From Pseudomonadota bacterium (GTDB lineage Bacteria; Pseudomonadota; Alphaproteobacteria; Caulobacterales; Caulobacteraceae): a stretch of 64,000 nt of DNA. The notes beneath the pieces were generated by a model. That model was given only the letters and a program-made list of their open reading frames with translations. It was not told where the DNA came from and made no database searches. The position numbers and the translations under genes were made by a program. The stretch spans positions 1 to 64,000 of the forward strand of contig JAIUNU010000003.1 of NCBI GenBank assembly GCA_020161365.1, given 5' to 3'. Shown piece by piece: positions 1-42,523 of this stretch (positions are counted from its first letter, which is position 1; the number at the start of each line of letters is the position of its first letter).

Positions 1-929
<929 letters not shown>

Positions 930-34656: not shown

Positions 34657-35934
34657 TCAGGCGATCGGCGCGCGGGGCGGGCGCATCACGAGGACCGCCA
34701 CGAACACCAACGCGGTGACGGCGGCGAAGAGTTCGAACGTCGGGGTGAAGCTGCCCAGCCGGTCGCGCATGGCGCCGGCGATGAACGGCCCCGCCGCCGA
34801 CACGGCCCCGACCAGACAGGTCAAGGAGAACAACTCCAGATTGCTCTGGCGACCGTAGTAGTTCAGCAGCAGCACCGTCACGGCCAAGACCGTCAGGCCA
34901 AAGCCGACACCTGTCCCGATCGCATAGACCAGCATCAGCGCGGGGGTCGTCGCCTTGGACAAGGCCAGCAGGCCGACCACCAACATTCCCTGAGCAAAGA
35001 CCAGCAGCCACCGCGGATCCACCCGGTCCCCCAAGGCGCCGCCGGCGAGCCGGGCCAGGGTCTGCATCAAGGCCTCCAGGCTCAGCATCTTGGCGGCCAA
35101 AGCCCCAGCCGCCACGGCCGCCACACCGGCGGCGACGCCCAACTCGGTGAGGTGCGAGACCGAGACGCTGGCGACGGTGACCCCGACCAGCAGGTGAGAG
35201 AAATAGGCCGACACCAGGATGTAGAACTGCGGCGTCCGCAGCGCCTGGCGGACCGTCCATTCGTGCGCGGTCCGATAGACACGGGCGTTGGCGAGCGCTT
35301 GCCGCGCCGCCTGCTCGACCTCGATGTCGACCTCGTGGGCGGCGGCCGCCAGCCATTTTGAGCCGCCCACCATCAGGGCGCAGAATCCCCCGACCACGAC
35401 GGCCAGAACCGCCTGCACCATCCAGAAAACGCGCCAGTCGCCGCCGCTGGCGCCCATCAGGGTGAGCACCATCCACGGCCCGGCGGCGCCGCCGAGCGAT
35501 CCGAAGGTGAAATAGACGCCGAACGGCAGGGCGCGCTGGCGAAACAGGGCCGACAGCACGTGGGTGCCCGGGATCAGCGCGGCCATCTGAAAGCCGACGC
35601 CGCAAGCCGCTGCGCCGACATAGTAGCTGAGCAGGCTCTCGGCGTTGGCTAGGCCCACAAAACCGCCGGCCAGCACGACCGCACCCGCCAGCAGAGTCCC
35701 GCGAACGCCAATCTTCCGGATCAGGATCGCCGGCAGCCAGGACGAGGCGCCGGTGAAGACGCCCAGCACGGAAAAGCCCAGGAACGCCTTTTCAAAGCTC
35801 CAGTTCAGTTCGCCGATCATGGCGGGCAGAACCACACCCAGCGAGCCGTAGGTCGAGGCAGTGATCAGGAACAGCAGCAGGCTGAACGCCGCCAAGAGCG
35901 ACCAGGGACGGAAACGAGACGCGGTGTCGATCAT
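34657..35934 (-). CDS. MFS transporter
   Basis: A 425-residue inner-membrane carrier with 12 hydrophobic segments and a central cytoplasmic loop near 200-225 (LAAAAHEVDIEVEQAARQA). The opening SLLAAFSLLLFLITASTYGSLGVVLPAMIGELNWSFEKAFLGFSVLGVFTGASSW resembles the monocarboxylate/oxalate-formate antiporter subgroup. The ATG follows GAGGAGGCAAGG, part of which comes from the adjacent inverted repeat. It lies downstream of the siderophore-type receptor on the same strand and could work with it; substrate unknown. Confidence 0.85.
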   Translation of the reverse strand: MIDTASRFRPWSLLAAFSLLLFLITASTYGSLGVVLPAMIGELNWSFEKAFLGFSVLGVFTGASSWLPAILIRKIGVRGTLLAGAVVLAGGFVGLANAESLLSYYVGAAACGVGFQMAALIPGTHVLSALFRQRALPFGVYFTFGSLGGAAGPWMVLTLMGASGGDWRVFWMVQAVLAVVVGGFCALMVGGSKWLAAAAHEVDIEVEQAARQALANARVYRTAHEWTVRQALRTPQFYILVSAYFSHLLVGVTVASVSVSHLTELGVAAGVAAVAAGALAAKMLSLEALMQTLARLAGGALGDRVDPRWLLVFAQGMLVVGLLALSKATTPALMLVYAIGTGVGFGLTVLAVTVLLLNYYGRQSNLELFSLTCLVGAVSAAGPFIAGAMRDRLGSFTPTFELFAAVTALVFVAVLVMRPPRAPIA

Positions 35935-35942
35935 CAGCCTTG

Positions 35943-36084
35943 CCTCCTCACCCGTGAAACGGGGGAGGTGGCGCGATGCGCGGCATCGCGACGGAGGGGG
36001 CGTCGTGCGGCCGCTAGCGCCCCCTCCGTCACGTCGCCTTTCGGCGCCGCGCCACCTCCCCCGCACGCTTCGCTACGGGGGAGG
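35943..36084. repeat. GC-rich palindromic repeat, copy 1
   Basis: Two inverted arms meet at CGCCCCCTCC/GGAGGGGGCG. Each arm carries CCTCCCCC..GGGGGAGG hairpin sequence and GGTGGCGCG. Two further copies lie near 52.0 and 53.2 kb, all outside genes. It sits between the MFS start and the TonB-receptor stop and may affect transcript stability. Confidence 0.85.
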
Positions 36085-36100
36085 AAGAATAGCTCGATCA

Positions 36101-38494
36101 TCAAAAGGTCCGCTTCAGGGTGGCCCGCCACTCGCGCCCCTTGCCGGGCAAGGCGCCGAGGTTGGCGTAGGTGTCGGCGTCGGGCGTGAAATAGAAGGTG
36201 TCGAACAGATTATCGACATTGAACGATACGGTGTACGGCCCGCGCGTCACATACGCCGACGCATTGACCACCTCATAGGCCGGATAGCGCACCGCATTCT
36301 GCACCGTACCTGAGGTGCGGCCCACATGGCTGATGCCCAGCGTCGCGCCAGCCTGACCCCAGTCGTAGCCCTTGCTGGTGTAGGTCCCGTAGAGGCTGAG
36401 CACCGACTTCGGCGTCAGGGTGTAGGCGTAGTCGCCGCTCCGGCCCGGCAGGCCGGCAAAGCTCCACACCAAATAGGAACCGCCATAGGCCTGCGCGCCC
36501 GGCACGCCGGCGGTGTAGGCCGGGATGTACTGGAACGAGCTGTCCGGTCCCTTGATCGTCGTGCGCTGGTTGTTGCCGGCGAAGGTGAAGGACAGCCGCT
36601 CGGACGCCAGCCAGCGGATCTCCAGTTCCATGCCCTTGGCGTGCGTGCCCTGGACGGTGGGCGGAGCGATCGCGCCGGTGATCTGGGTGCGGTTCTGGCG
36701 ATAGGCGGCCAGCGAGCCGATCAAGGTCCCACGCAGCAGCTGGAACTTCACCCCGGCCTCGGCGAGATCCGAACTGGAGAGCCACGAGCCGTCGGCCACC
36801 AGACCCGGTGCGATGTCGCCGCCCTGGCTCATCTCCAGCGCCGCAGCCTTGGCGTAGCTGGCGTAGGGCATCAGGCCAATCGGAAGCTTGTAGGTCAGGC
36901 TGGCGTTCCAGGTCGCCCTGTTGCGCTCGGCCGTCTTGCGGCCCGTGACCGTATAGCTGAGGAAGCCGGTGTCCTGGCTCTCGACGCTGTAGCGATCCCA
37001 GCGCCCGCCCAGGATCAGGTTCAGGGGGCCGACGTCGATGTCGGTGGTGACGAAGACGCCGGTCTGTTTCCAGGTCGAGCGGTTGTCGTTCTCCCACTTC
37101 AGCCCGACGCCGCCCGGCTCGTCGTCGAACGGGCTGTCGATGATGTCGGTCGGGGTCGCGCCAAAGCTGATGTCGCGACGATCCAGGGCGATCATGCCGC
37201 TGTTGTAGCTCTCACGCCGCCGCCCCTCGAACCAGCGATGGGAGCCGCCGACCAGTGTGCGGGCGCTGGCCGCGCCAAGGGTGGTCGGGAAGGCGTAGGT
37301 CAGGCGGATCTCGCTGACCTTGGCGTCGATCGCCGACGGATAGCCGTAGGAGACGTACCGCTTGTTGTCCTGACGGTCGTGGAACAGCTGCAGCTTCAGC
37401 ACGCGATCCTCGCCCAGGTCCTTGGCCAGATCGAAGTACAGCGTCTGGGTGTCGGTCTTCGAGAAGTCGGCGGGGCTGATATAGACCGTGCGGCGGTCCA
37501 GCTTTTTGGTCCCGACACCGACGTCCAGCGTATGGACCGCATCGGTACTGAAAAAGCCGTAGTACGGGATGTAGAGCGCGCTGGCGAAGGGATAGAAGCC
37601 CACCTCGTTGGGCGTCAGCCGGCCGTTGCCGTCCGTGTCCTTCAGCGTCGTATCGCGGCCAGTGATGTAGGTGCGGTTGTCGATCAGGTCCTGGGTCAGG
37701 CGGTTCCAGCCCGGCGTCTGCACGTCGCCCCGCGAGCGGAACAGCATCCCGCCGAAAGCGGTGCTCCAGCCGTTCCCGAGGTCGAAATCGGACGACAGCT
37801 CCAGGGTCTGGTGACGCGGATAGATCCCCTTGTAGAAGCTGTGGCTGTCCTCGGCCTCGCCATAGACATAGACCCCGCCCTCAGCGCCGCCGAGGCTCAC
37901 CGGCGCGCCGAACTGGGCGGTGAGCAGCTTCTTGTTGTAGCTGCCGAAGGTGGCGCTCACCTCCCCTTCCGGTCCGGCCAGGAACCGGCCCTCGTCGCGG
38001 GCGGACTTCGGAACGAAGTTGACGAGGCCCCCGACCTTGCCCGCGCCGTACACGGGGGTCGGCGGACCGCGCAGGATCTCGAGGCGCGCCGCGCCGCCGA
38101 TCGGGGTCGAGTAGGTGCCGCGGTTCTCGACGCGCTTGAAGCCCCGGAAGTAGTTCTCGGCCAGGGTGCCGCGAATGTTCAGCGAGCCGGGCACACCATA
38201 GAAACTGGCCGTATGCGTGCCGGGCGCGACCTTGGTGGCGCCGTCCAGGGTGAGAACGCCATAGCGCTCCAGCGTCAGGTCGCTGACCAGACTGGCCGAG
38301 CGTGGCGTCTCGATCAGCGGCTTGTCGATGCCGAACACCGTCTGGCTGGGCTCTTTCTCCAAAAGGCCTGCCTTGTCGCGCGCCACGATCACCACCGCAT
38401 CGACGCGGTCGGAAAGCTGCGCGTCTGCCAGGGCGGGCGACGCGGCGGAGAGGGCCAGGAGGCTGGCCGACAGGAGGATGCGCGGAGACGACAT
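36101..38494 (-). CDS. TonB-dependent receptor (siderophore type)
   Basis: A 797-residue outer-membrane receptor. The signal peptide ends SPALAD. The plug domain (about 30-165) has LIETPRSASLVSDLTLERYGV, NIRGTLAENYFRGFKRVENRGTY and LEILRGPPTPVYGAGKVGGLVNF, as in ferric-siderophore receptors; the 22-strand barrel ends in LKRTF. An extracellular loop near residue 290 has DTDGNGRLTPNE, an EF-hand-like calcium loop. The ATG after GAAGGTT is preferred to an upstream GTG. An FCD-GntR gene lies just upstream and a palindromic operator candidate lies between them. Substrate unknown; FCD control hints at an organic acid or sugar derivative rather than iron alone. Confidence 0.9.
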   Translation of the reverse strand: MSSPRILLSASLLALSAASPALADAQLSDRVDAVVIVARDKAGLLEKEPSQTVFGIDKPLIETPRSASLVSDLTLERYGVLTLDGATKVAPGTHTASFYGVPGSLNIRGTLAENYFRGFKRVENRGTYSTPIGGAARLEILRGPPTPVYGAGKVGGLVNFVPKSARDEGRFLAGPEGEVSATFGSYNKKLLTAQFGAPVSLGGAEGGVYVYGEAEDSHSFYKGIYPRHQTLELSSDFDLGNGWSTAFGGMLFRSRGDVQTPGWNRLTQDLIDNRTYITGRDTTLKDTDGNGRLTPNEVGFYPFASALYIPYYGFFSTDAVHTLDVGVGTKKLDRRTVYISPADFSKTDTQTLYFDLAKDLGEDRVLKLQLFHDRQDNKRYVSYGYPSAIDAKVSEIRLTYAFPTTLGAASARTLVGGSHRWFEGRRRESYNSGMIALDRRDISFGATPTDIIDSPFDDEPGGVGLKWENDNRSTWKQTGVFVTTDIDVGPLNLILGGRWDRYSVESQDTGFLSYTVTGRKTAERNRATWNASLTYKLPIGLMPYASYAKAAALEMSQGGDIAPGLVADGSWLSSSDLAEAGVKFQLLRGTLIGSLAAYRQNRTQITGAIAPPTVQGTHAKGMELEIRWLASERLSFTFAGNNQRTTIKGPDSSFQYIPAYTAGVPGAQAYGGSYLVWSFAGLPGRSGDYAYTLTPKSVLSLYGTYTSKGYDWGQAGATLGISHVGRTSGTVQNAVRYPAYEVVNASAYVTRGPYTVSFNVDNLFDTFYFTPDADTYANLGALPGKGREWRATLKRTF

Positions 38495-38578: not shown

Positions 38579-38596
38579 CTTCTGACATTTCAGAAG
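38579..38596. promoter_or_regulatory. palindrome CTTCTGA-CATT-TCAGAAG (candidate GntR operator)
   Basis: Perfect 7-bp arms around a 4-nt centre, 85 nt upstream of the TonB-receptor start. On the minus strand its core reads CTGAAATGTCAG. A near-identical site, CTGAAATGTTAG, precedes the GntR gene. The matching pair suggests the regulator controls both its own gene and the receptor. Confidence 0.5.
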
Positions 38597-38681
38597 AGAT
38601 TGCGAAGAAGGTGTGACCTGAATGCTGCAGCTTACGTAAAGGGAACAATGATCTAGGGGACGTGACGCCCAGGCCTGCGAT

Positions 38682-39398
38682 CTAAGATCGAGCGCCAGCC
38701 TCGGGCTGGACGTCGAGGATCCGCAGCATCGCTTGCCGCGAGCCTTCGACGTCACCACTGGCGATCACGCGCGCGACCTGACGATGCTCCTCGATCTCAT
38801 CGAGAAGTTCCTGCTCAGACGCGCCGTTGAATGAGAACACCCAGAAGCGGGCGGCCTTGTGCTGTAAGGGGATCAAGATGCGGGCCAGGGCCAGATTGCC
38901 CGAGGCGCGGGCGACGGCGGCGTGGAAACGCAGGTCCATCGCCACCAGGGCCGGCAGATCGCAGGTCCGAGCGGCCTCCTCCCCGTCGGCGAACACATCG
39001 TACATCGCCTGGGCCTCGGCCTTGCTGGCCGTCTTGGCCGCGAGCTGGGCGCAGTGCGGCTCGATCAGCACCCGCGCCTCGTAGCCCTGGCGCAGCTCCA
39101 CCAGGTCCAGCGGCGCGACCGTGGTGCCCGACCGCGCGCGGCGGATGACCAGGCCCTCCAGCGCCAGGCGCCCGAGGGCGTCGCGGACGCCCGCCAGGCC
39201 GGTGTCGTAGTGCGCCGCCAGCGATTGCTCGTCCAGGCGCGAACCGGCCGGCAGTTCGCCCAGGATCAGGTCCAGCAGGATCCGCTCATAAACCTTGGTC
39301 TTCTGCAACTCAGGCGCCCAGTCCTCCAGGCCGGAGGAATTGGCGACATCCAGCACAAGGCGGCGTCCAACGGGCAATTTCAGCGACGGCGAGGCCAT
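38682..39398 (-). CDS. GntR-family regulator (FCD subfamily)
   Basis: A 238-residue regulator. The winged helix (about 30-95) has KVYERILLDLILGELPAGSRLDEQSLAAHYDTGLAGVRDALGRLALEGLVIRRARSG; the all-helical FCD domain follows, with probable metal-binding His residues (RFHAAVARASGN and EEHRQV). FCD regulators sense organic acids. The ATG giving MASPSLKLP is preferred over a 25-codon longer form that would overlap the operator. The receptor is encoded next on the same strand. Confidence 0.9.
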   Translation of the reverse strand: MASPSLKLPVGRRLVLDVANSSGLEDWAPELQKTKVYERILLDLILGELPAGSRLDEQSLAAHYDTGLAGVRDALGRLALEGLVIRRARSGTTVAPLDLVELRQGYEARVLIEPHCAQLAAKTASKAEAQAMYDVFADGEEAARTCDLPALVAMDLRFHAAVARASGNLALARILIPLQHKAARFWVFSFNGASEQELLDEIEEHRQVARVIASGDVEGSRQAMLRILDVQPEAGARS

Positions 39399-39433
39399 GG
39401 AGAATCCGTGAGCAGCAGGCGCTGATAGGTAAG

Positions 39434-39445
39434 CTGAAATGTTAG
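39434..39445 (+). promoter_or_regulatory. CTGAAATGTTAG, second candidate GntR operator
   Basis: Differs at one position from the core of the palindrome upstream of the TonB receptor (CTGAAATGTCAG). It lies 36 nt upstream of the GntR start, a good position for autoregulation. Confidence 0.45.
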
Positions 39446-39498: not shown

Positions 39499-40305
39499 TC
39501 AGAACGCCGGAACCACCGCGCCGGCGTACTTCTGCTCGATGAACGCCTTGACCTCGGGCGTGGTCAGAGCCGCCGCCAGTTTCTTGACGCGCGGGTCGTC
39601 CTTATTGTCGGGACGGCCGACCAGATAGTTCACATAGGGGCTGGTCTTGTCCTCGATGATCAGGGCGTCATTGCTGGGGTTCAGCTTGGCGTCGAGGGCG
39701 TAGTTGGTGTTGATAACCGCCAGATCGACCTGGTTCAGCACCCGCGGCAGGGCCGGCGCCTCCAGCTCCTTGAACTTCAGGTTCTTCGGGTTGCTGGTGA
39801 TGTCGCGCAGGCTGGTCAGCGGGTTCTTGGGGTCCTTGATGGCGATGACGCCGTTCTTGGCCAGCAGAATCAGGGCGCGGCCTTCGGTCGAGGCGTCATT
39901 GGGGATGGCGATCACAGCGCCATTCGGAACCTCGGCGATCGACTTCCACTTGGCCGAATAGGTCCCGATCGGCTCGACGTGGACGCCCTGTAGCGGGATC
40001 AGGTTGGTCCCCTTGTCGCGATTGAAGCTCTCCAGATACGGCAAGGTCTGGAAGTAGCTGACGTCGATGCGCTTTTCGGCGACCTGGGTGTTGGGCTGAA
40101 CGTAGTCGTTGAACACCTTGATGTCGATGTTCAGGCCCTGCGCCGCCAGCTTTGGCTTGATGAACTCCAGCACTTCCGCGTGCGGCACGGCGGTGGCGGC
40201 CACGGTCAGGGTGTTGGCGTCGCTGGCCTTGGGGGCCTTCGGGCCGCAGGCGGTCAGCGCCAGGGCGGCGAGGCTGAGGGCGACGAAGGCGCGGCGGGCG
40301 ACCAT
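39499..40305 (-). CDS. metQ: methionine ABC transporter binding lipoprotein MetQ
   Basis: A 268-residue NlpA/MetQ-family lipoprotein: lipobox LTAC near residue 20, then VAATAVPHAEVLEFIKPKLAAQGLNIDIKVFNDYVQPN, the family signature. It binds D/L-methionine in the periplasm and delivers it to MetNI. GGAG lies 8 nt before the chosen ATG. It is the last gene of the metN-metI-(unknown)-metQ series, separated from the unknown gene by 102 nt. A short hairpin (CTCCCC / GGGGAG) lies beyond the stop. Confidence 0.93.
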   Translation of the reverse strand: MVARRAFVALSLAALALTACGPKAPKASDANTLTVAATAVPHAEVLEFIKPKLAAQGLNIDIKVFNDYVQPNTQVAEKRIDVSYFQTLPYLESFNRDKGTNLIPLQGVHVEPIGTYSAKWKSIAEVPNGAVIAIPNDASTEGRALILLAKNGVIAIKDPKNPLTSLRDITSNPKNLKFKELEAPALPRVLNQVDLAVINTNYALDAKLNPSNDALIIEDKTSPYVNYLVGRPDNKDDPRVKKLAAALTTPEVKAFIEQKYAGAVVPAF

Positions 40306-40407
40306 GAACAGCTCCATAAAGGCGATCTTAGCGGTAGGCTTTTGCCCTGATACGCATCACGCACGAAATCAGATTTCCTGACGAGCCCTCAAGAAGAGAG
40401 CGGCCGC

Positions 40408-40755
40408 TCAGACTTCGTCGTCCACGTCATTGGCGACGTCCGGCGGTCCCTGGATGATCCAGCTGGCCACGAAGTCGGGCTTGTCGCCCGCCAAGCTGGT
40501 CAGGCCCGCCTCGGCCTTCTGGATGGCGGAGGTCTGCGGCGGCAGGGTGTAGGTGTCCCCGTCGTGCTCGCCCAGCAGATCCAGCACGATCCCCTCATGT
40601 TCGGTGGCGTCGATAACCACGCCGAAGAACTGCTGGCGCTCCTGCACCTCACCCTCGTCGTCGAGGAAGGTCAGGTTCATCAGCAGGGTCTTGCCGAGCA
40701 AGCTCTCGGCGACAGCGGCGTCCCAGTGGGGGTCGTGGTCGGCTTCAATCGTCAT
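40408..40755 (-). CDS. small acidic protein of unknown function inside the met transporter operon
   Basis: A 115-residue soluble, acidic protein (MTIEADHDPHWDAAVAESLLGKTLLMNLTFLDDEGEVQERQQFFGVVIDATEHEGIVLDLLGEHDGDTYTLPPQ), predicted as a small beta-barrel-like fold from its strand pattern. No signal peptide or membrane segment. It begins 10 nt after metI and precedes metQ. MetNIQ operons normally lack such a gene. A GTG two codons upstream is an alternative start. Confidence 0.72.
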   Translation of the reverse strand: MTIEADHDPHWDAAVAESLLGKTLLMNLTFLDDEGEVQERQQFFGVVIDATEHEGIVLDLLGEHDGDTYTLPPQTSAIQKAEAGLTSLAGDKPDFVASWIIQGPPDVANDVDDEV

Positions 40756-40765
40756 GTTCACAGAC

Positions 40766-41425
40766 CTACTTGTGCGAAACGTGGCGCACCACCGCGTCGC
40801 CGATCATCTGCAGCACCTGCACCAGCACCAGCATCAGCACCACGGTCACGACCATCACGTCGGTCTGGAAGCGCTGATAGCCGAAGCGGATAGCCAGGTC
40901 ACCCAAACCGCCCGCGCCGACCACGCCGGCCATGGCGGTGTAGGAGACCAGCGCCACGGCCGTGACGGTCGCGGCCGCAACGAGGCCCGGCAGCGCCTCG
41001 GGCAGCAATGCGCCCAGCACCACCTGGCGCCGCTTGGCGCCCATGGCGAAGCTGGCCTCGATCACGCCCTTGTCGACCTCGCGCAGGGCGGTCTCGACCA
41101 GACGCGCAAAGAACGGCGCGGCGCCGGCCACCAGCGGCGGGATCGCGCCGGCCACGCCCAGCGACGTGCCGACCAGCGCCACCGTCAGCGGGATCATCAC
41201 GATCAGGAGGATCACGAACGGCACCGAACGCAGGATGTTGACCAGCAGCGACAGCGCCCCGTTGGCCAGCCGGTTCTCCAGCATCTGGCCCTTGCCGGTC
41301 AGGAACAGGATCACGCCCAGCGGCAGGCCGACCGCGATGGTGAGAACCATCGAGCCGCCCAGCATGGCCAGAGTGTCGAGCGTGGCTTGGCCGATCTCGC
41401 TCCAGTCGATGTTCGAGGCGCTCAT
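40766..41425 (-). CDS. metI: methionine ABC transporter permease MetI
   Basis: A 219-residue inner-membrane permease with five hydrophobic segments and the conserved loop [47 protein letters not shown] and [26 protein letters not shown] are MetI hallmarks. The start overlaps the metN stop by 4 nt. Confidence 0.94.
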
Positions 41426-42420
41426 TGGGCGGTCTCCCCGGAAAGCTCATCCACGCGCACACCGGAGGCCTGGAACTGGGCGATGGCGGCGGCGACGTCG
41501 CCGCCGGTCAGGGCCAGGGTCAGTTGGCCGTAGGGCGTCTCGCGCAGACGATGGATTCGCCCGCCCAGGATGGAATAGTCGACGCCGGTGGCGCGGGCCA
41601 CCTCGCCCAGCACCGGCTTGTAGGTCGCCTCGCCCTTGAAGGTCAGGCGCACCACACGGCCGCCCACGCCCGGCGCGGCGGAGACATCGCCCTCGGCTTC
41701 GCGCACGAAGCGGCGCGCGGTGTCACTGGTCGGATGCAGGAACACTTCTTCGACAGCGCCCTCCTCCACCACACAGCCGGCGTCCAGCACGGCGACGCGG
41801 TCGCAGACGCGGCGCACGACGTCCATCTCGTGGGTGATCAGCACGATGGTCAGACCCAGTTCCCGGTTCAGGCCCGAAATAAGGTCCAGGATCTGCTCAG
41901 TGGTCTCCGGATCCAGCGCGCTGGTGGCCTCGTCGCAGAGCAGGACCTTGGGATTGGTGGCCAGGGCGCGGGCGATGCCGACGCGCTGCTTCTGACCGCC
42001 GGAGAGTTGGGCAGGATACTTGTCGGCATGGACGGTCAGTCCCACGCGCTCCAGCAGCTCGGCCGTCCGCGCCCTGACCTCGGCGGCGGGACGGCCGGCC
42101 AGCTTCAGCGGAAAGGCGACGTTCTGGGCGACCGTCTTGCCCGACAACAGGTTGAAGTGCTGGAAGATCATCCCGACCCGGCGGCGCAGGGCGCGCAGGC
42201 CTTCGACGCCCAGGGCGGCGACGTCGTCGCCATCGACGATCACGTGGCCGGCGCTTGGGGCCTCCAGGCCGTTGATCAGCCGGATCAGGGTGGACTTGCC
42301 AGCGCCCGAGGCGCCAATCACGCCGAACACCTCGCCGGCGTTCACCGACAGAGAAACCCCGCGCAACGCAGGCGGCGCGCCCTCGGCGTAGGTTTTAGAG
42401 ACGTCCTGGAAGGTGATCAC
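41422..42420 (-). CDS. metN: methionine ABC transporter ATPase MetN
   Basis: A 332-residue ATPase. Walker A is GASGAGKST, the Q loop IFQHFNLL, signature LSGGQKQR and Walker [12 protein letters not shown], all as in MetN. The C-terminal 80 residues ([36 protein letters not shown]) form the NIL regulatory domain that binds methionine and inhibits transport. The start is taken as GTG, giving [14 protein letters not shown]; an ATG 24 codons upstream gives a Gly/Arg-rich extension unlike the family. No SAM riboswitch was recognized in the 103-nt gap upstream. Confidence 0.92.
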
Positions 42421-42523
42421 GCGGCCAAGTCCAAGCAGGGTTTCGGGCGGCCCCAGGCCGCGAGCCGCTCGATTTAGGCGCTTGCCGGGCAAAGGTGAAG
42501 GAAAACCAACGTCCCCGCCCGGA

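Follow-up and report, generated by a model that had tools for sequence, protein, structure and literature searches.

The window, that is the whole 64,000-nucleotide stretch of Caulobacteraceae DNA analysed here, carries genes for an FCD-family GntR regulator (REG), a TonB-dependent receptor (TBDR1) and, next after the receptor gene, an inner-membrane MFS transporter (MFS1), with one short operator-like dyad upstream of the receptor gene (O1) and another upstream of the regulator gene (O2) (Table 1). The identities that an earlier note on this DNA had given to the regulator and the receptor were borne out by Pfam matches to GntR and FCD, both exceeding the cut-off, and to Plug and the TonB barrel. 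REG is 96% identical to its counterpart in C. vibrioides DSM 9893, which places the host in Caulobacter.

Immediately 5' of REG and in the same orientation are genes for a methionine-type ABC importer, and these met genes are kept beside REG in many Caulobacter loci. They were not found in the Phenylobacterium loci or in some Caulobacter loci, and hence are treated as neighbours and not as members of the system. In one Caulobacter clade, genes for an Xre-like antitoxin and a RES toxin, apparently a toxin-antitoxin module, are found between REG and the receptor gene. A 16S rRNA gene is cut by the window edge.

Table 1. Location of genes and sites in the window and in related loci.
Feature	Location	Strand	Details
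REG, FCD-family GntR regulator, 238 aa	38682..39398	-	Pfam GntR 53.7 bits, FCD 88.1 bits; ATG at 39398
TBDR1, TonB-dependent receptor, 797 aa	36101..38494	-	Pfam barrel 84.5 bits, Plug 35.1 bits; ATG at 38494
MFS1, inner-membrane MFS transporter ORF	34657..36066	-	likely start near 35934
Operator O1, upstream of TBDR1	38579..38596, core 38582-38593	-	18-mer CTTCTGAAATGTCAGAAG; core 12-mer CTGAAATGTCAG
Operator O2, upstream of REG	39434..39445	+	CTGAAATGTTAG; reads CTAACATTTCAG toward the gene
metQ, small gene of no known function, metI, metN	39499-42492	-	methionine-type ABC importer
16S rRNA gene	1-928	-	cut by window edge
Third site, upstream of TBDR2	own genome, contig C5, 244187		GTGAAATGTCAG
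Second RutA-like monooxygenase and isochorismatase pair	own genome, L074:10203-11893 (G000:C13)		no receptor or operator
Perfect palindrome at further MFS gene	L114:7194, L116:6428, L122:7294, L125:7443		CTGAAATTTCAG
Xre/RES gene pair	L022:6778-7985		orthologous loci L023, L025-L027, L051
Sister palindrome, REG paralogue/ribD gap, Caulobacter	L134:7468, L135:7408, L133:7639		CTAACATGTTAG or near form

Operator sites and their association with REG

Both 12-mers were found where the earlier note had placed them, and at regulatory distances as it had described, O1 ending ~88 bp 5' of the TBDR1 start codon and O2 spanning 36-47 bp 5' of that of REG. The site before the receptor gene had also been called a perfect 18-bp palindrome; the site is present, but it is not perfect, as the 18-mer agrees with its own reverse complement at 16 of 18 positions and one of the nine dyad pairs (columns 8 and 11) is broken. 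The O2 dyad is weaker than that of O1. At one mismatch or fewer, CTGAAATGTCAG and CTGAAATGTTAG are the sole two matches in the window, compared with a shuffled average of 0.18. Exact matches in the 4.43-Mb genome (25 contigs) are confined to O1 and O2, and the reversed-pattern control has 0 exact matches in the same sequence. A sigma-70-type scan around both operators found no promoter.

Footprinting drew on 46 homologous loci in Caulobacter, Phenylobacterium and genera related to them, with some genomes present twice, and the gene order REG-TBDR-MFS is common to most of them. The consensus CTGAMATKTYAG was derived from the same loci that it was used to score, and its presence at one mismatch or fewer upstream of 45/52 REG genes (a count that includes the mis-anchored rows L051 and L053) and 52/57 TBDR genes is therefore descriptive. 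Among shuffled upstream regions, 2 of 2180 matched at this threshold. The operator keeps a steady distance from the gene across loci, which is 40-95 bp at most REG genes and 58-124 bp at most TBDR genes.

Orthologues of REG were identified in 40 of 61 Caulobacter genomes. Sites matching STGAMATKTYAG are present in every one of these 40 genomes and in 7 of the 21 that lack REG (Fisher 5e-9, with shared ancestry ignored), at means of 4.5 and 0.67 strand matches per genome, respectively, whereas the reversed-pattern control is about equally rare in the two groups (0.55 and 0.71). As the site recurs before REG and TBDR orthologues and co-occurs with REG in the 61 genomes, the leading candidate for the operator-binding protein is REG itself. 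The same observations strongly support the autoregulation and receptor control predicted in the earlier note, and a REG regulon can be proposed with high confidence.

Catabolic genes linked to the operator

The genome scan for the motif that the earlier note had suggested revealed a third site in the same genome, ~90 bp upstream of a second receptor gene, TBDR2. The genes after TBDR2 encode a transporter (MFS2), a RutA-like luciferase-family monooxygenase (LLM), an isochorismatase-family hydrolase (ISOCH) and an M20 enzyme, and TauD, Rieske and extradiol dioxygenase genes lie 3' of the M20 gene (locus L073). TBDR2 and MFS2 are paralogues of TBDR1 and MFS1, and an operator before a TBDR2-type operon is also found in four other species. 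The genome's other sites at one mismatch, which either precede argD-like and lexA-like genes or fall within genes, look like chance occurrences, as the reversed control gave 13 strand matches against 25.

Phenylobacterium and other Caulobacteraceae have a single cluster with the order REG-TBDR-MFS-monooxygenase-isochorismatase-M20-TauD-SDR-TauD-Rieske-extradiol-acetamidase/formamidase-AraC. Judged by this arrangement, the cluster is split in the window's lineage, with the operator on both halves. The same enzymes, at 45-73% identity, are encoded together on a plasmid of Kozakia baliensis, and the MFS-monooxygenase-isochorismatase-M20 core is found with a flavin reductase on plasmids of Paraburkholderia graminis and Acinetobacter. 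The plasmid copies of the module lack REG, and a gene of the Tsx-type nucleoside-channel family adjoins the Paraburkholderia module. The joined cluster in relatives and the plasmid modules indicate that the cluster genes genuinely work as a unit, with REG most likely in control of both uptake and catabolism; the inclusion of the catabolic operon in the regulon can be predicted with good confidence.

In three Phenylobacterium genomes, a ribokinase-like gene close to the cluster also has the REG operator, ~45-65 bp on its 5' side; the ribokinase-like gene of the window's genome has no operator. Another MFS gene, located near pheS/rplT, has the perfect palindrome CTGAAATTTCAG 23-53 bp before it in some members of the genus Caulobacter, though not in the window's genome, and may also belong to the regulon. 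The window's genome further includes a second RutA-like monooxygenase and isochorismatase gene pair, and this monooxygenase is 74% identical to that of the Phenylobacterium locus L041.

The nearest solved structure to the monooxygenase is RutA (237 bits), and a hand alignment showed conservation of the RutA O2-pocket residues T105, N134 and V136, with Met in place of L65. The isochorismatase resembles RutB and biuret hydrolase. For the M20 enzyme, the best solved relative is 5-nitroanthranilate aminohydrolase (279 bits), which removes a ring amine. The Rieske and extradiol enzymes in the cluster imply a benzenoid ring in the substrate. Taken in order, the enzymes suggest that a uracil-like ring, fused to an aromatic one, is opened, after which the ureido part is removed, the amine replaced and the remaining ring cleaved.

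A role in the uracil/thymine (Rut) pathway with its uptake is suggested by the RutA-like monooxygenase and the adjacent RutB/BiuH-like isochorismatase, together with a RutE-like reductase encoded beside REG in Phenylobacterium. However, the L041 monooxygenase, which is the Phenylobacterium orthologue of LLM, scores 266 bits against the RutA equivalog model TIGR03612, where the cut-off is 498, the isochorismatase is under the RutB cut-off, the cluster has neither RutC nor RutD, and uracil needs no Rieske, extradiol or aminohydrolase enzymes. As a separate true RutA (699 bits) is encoded with RutC and RutD elsewhere in the window's genome, uracil was rejected as the substrate, and this reading is extremely improbable. 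Uptake of a ferric siderophore by the receptor, with the link to the GntR regulator being secondary, is scarcely better placed and is very improbable. The solved structures to which the receptor is weakly related are siderophore receptors, through similarity in the plug. On the other hand, TBDR1 scores 98.6 bits against the siderophore-receptor model TIGR01783 (cut-off 223.5; TBDR2 scores 109.7 bits), and the conserved linkage is to a catabolic cluster and not to iron genes.

The presence of genes for RutA-like, isochorismatase, aminohydrolase, TauD, Rieske, extradiol and amidase enzymes in a cluster with REG-TBDR-MFS suggests that REG most likely controls both the import and the degradation of an N-heteroaromatic compound, as opposed to a siderophore and with no demonstrable case for an organic acid. 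The suggestion in the earlier note of a ligand other than a siderophore thus agrees both with this predicted catabolic operon and with the receptor score. Its assignment of REG as an organic-acid type sensor finds nothing specific in its favour other than the family name. The FCD family leaves the ligand open, the sequence by itself does not decide on a metal-bound carboxylate effector, and a flavin-like heterocycle is what the neighbouring genes suggest. Like the FCD-GntR autoregulators of the FadR/PdhR/LldR type, REG combines a GntR wHTH with an FCD domain and has a short dyad at its own promoter and at transport and catabolic genes. It differs from these in its operator, STGAMATKTYAS, in the predicted control of TonB receptors and a RutA-like catabolic operon, and in a ligand that is probably no simple carboxylate.

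Riboflavin synthesis genes and the candidate substrate

No homologue of RibAB or RibD was found in the window's genome, which is therefore a candidate riboflavin auxotroph. RibAB is absent from 17 of the 61 Caulobacter genomes, this one included, and present in 44; RibD is likewise absent from the 17, several of which are closed or near-closed chromosomes. All 17 have REG, compared with 23 of the 44 genomes with RibAB (p = 2e-4, uncorrected for phylogeny), a correlation that is structured by ancestry. Supported branches of the REG tree force at least six changes of rib status, when G022, which keeps just the GTP cyclohydrolase II half, is scored as rib-minus. All rib-minus genomes retain REG-TBDR-MFS intact. 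Many REG-bearing bacteria, including that of the window, hence appear unable to make riboflavin. A published protocol for Caulobacter strain K31 includes growth with added riboflavin (PMC5590869).

A paralogue of REG (42-46% identity) is encoded divergently from ribD-ribE-ribAB-ribH, and the sister palindrome CTAACATGTTAG or a near form of it is found in the gap between the paralogue gene and ribD, ~105-120 bp from the former, in about a dozen genomes. CTAACATGTTAG is therefore a candidate operator of a riboflavin-biosynthesis regulator, and no match to an FMN riboswitch was found in three such loci. The C. crescentus counterparts are the regulator CC_0884 (CCNA_00928) and the rib operon CC_0885-0889, reported to be Fur/iron regulated (PMC3751524). 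Regulators of this type are like REG in the wHTH (56-61% identity) and have a similar 12-bp dyad, but differ from it in the operator, in their link to biosynthesis instead of uptake, and in a ligand domain that is only 32-33% identical.

The best explanation of these observations is that the REG operator regulon serves the uptake and breakdown of a flavin (riboflavin, FMN or lumichrome), and a probability of about 0.5 is assigned to this reading, as to a flavin substrate itself. The autoregulated REG would bind the dyad STGAMATKTYAS, idealised as CTGAAATTTCAG, at three places, namely the promoter of its own gene, that of TBDR1-MFS1, and the site before the TBDR2-MFS2-RutA-like-isochorismatase-M20 operon. 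Entry of the ligand via the receptor and MFS pair would release REG and induce the uptake and breakdown genes, repressor polarity being assumed from family precedent. The RutA-like enzyme would then open the uracil-like ring, the isochorismatase would remove the ureido part, the M20 enzyme, which is NaaA-like, would take off the ring amine, and the remaining steps would fall to the TauD, Rieske, extradiol and amidase enzymes.

The choice of a flavin follows from the retention of REG in all of the RibAB-less genomes, from the REG paralogue and sister palindrome at the rib operon, from the operator at the Phenylobacterium ribokinase genes, which fits a ribose-bearing substrate, from the Tsx-type channel gene beside the Paraburkholderia module, and from the parallel with lumichrome breakdown. 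In the lum cluster of Nocardioides simplex, ring opening by LumH is followed by a 24-kDa hydrolase (LumI) acting on the urea moiety, a 52-kDa hydrolase (LumM) acting on the amine, and Rieske and extradiol enzymes, and the pathway also uses the P450 LumU, the TPP decarboxylase LumKL and the xanthine-oxidase LumJ (PMC12746152). The REG-linked cluster shares this order of steps, with ISOCH and the M20 enzyme matching LumI and LumM by size, but has an oxidative RutA-like opener in place of LumH, and includes a TonB receptor and TauD enzymes.

Several observations count against a flavin. None of the LumU-type P450, LumKL-type TPP decarboxylase or LumJ-type xanthine oxidase is among the genes called in the ~20-kb clusters read (L073, L158-L164), and REG and the rib-linked paralogue have little identity in the ligand domain. 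The correlation with rib loss is structured by phylogeny, the ribokinase-like gene in the window's genome lacks an operator, and the weak solved relatives of the receptor are siderophore receptors. It is also odd that a riboflavin auxotroph would degrade flavin, though the contradiction might be avoided if induction occurs at excess alone, or if it is lumichrome that is actually broken down.

The same REG regulon might instead act on a different N-heteroaromatic, one containing a lactam or uracil-like ring, such as a quinazoline-2,4-dione, a pterin or a quinolone-type compound, the riboflavin links being coincidental. The enzyme set demands no more than a fused N-heteroaromatic, the best solved relative of the M20 enzyme acts on 5-nitroanthranilate, and the cluster enzymes are unlike those of the lum pathway. 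However, coincidence would have to account for REG in each of the 17 genomes without RibAB, for the paralogue and sister operator at the rib operon, and for the ribokinase-like genes under the operator, and this reading is considered rather unlikely. Binding of the dyad by a different regulator, for example an AraC-type or TetR-type protein near the catabolic half, is improbable. An AraC gene does lie in the extended cluster and a TetR gene precedes TBDR2 in the window's genome, but neither type adjoins REG in the window, the site is upstream of REG in nearly all genomes and largely missing where REG is missing, and the REG paralogue has a sister dyad at its own gene.

The flavin reading can be extended to an FCD-GntR protein that responds to flavin or lumichrome and has TonB receptors, MFS transporters and a new oxidative flavin catabolism under its control, while a paralogue with a sister operator controls riboflavin synthesis, which was repeatedly lost in lineages with the regulon. 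This fuller proposal is tentative, at somewhat less than even odds. A literature search, with most subscription journals outside its scope, found no description of such a receptor, regulator or system. A pair of short repeats has thus led to a defined regulon whose ligand can be tested. If that ligand is a flavin, the system would provide a TonB-dependent route for vitamin B2 across the outer membrane, regulatory proteins for flavin metabolism at loci with no FMN riboswitch match, and a second genetic route for natural flavin recycling beside the lum pathway of 2025, and it would account for the lack of riboflavin synthesis in many Caulobacter genomes.
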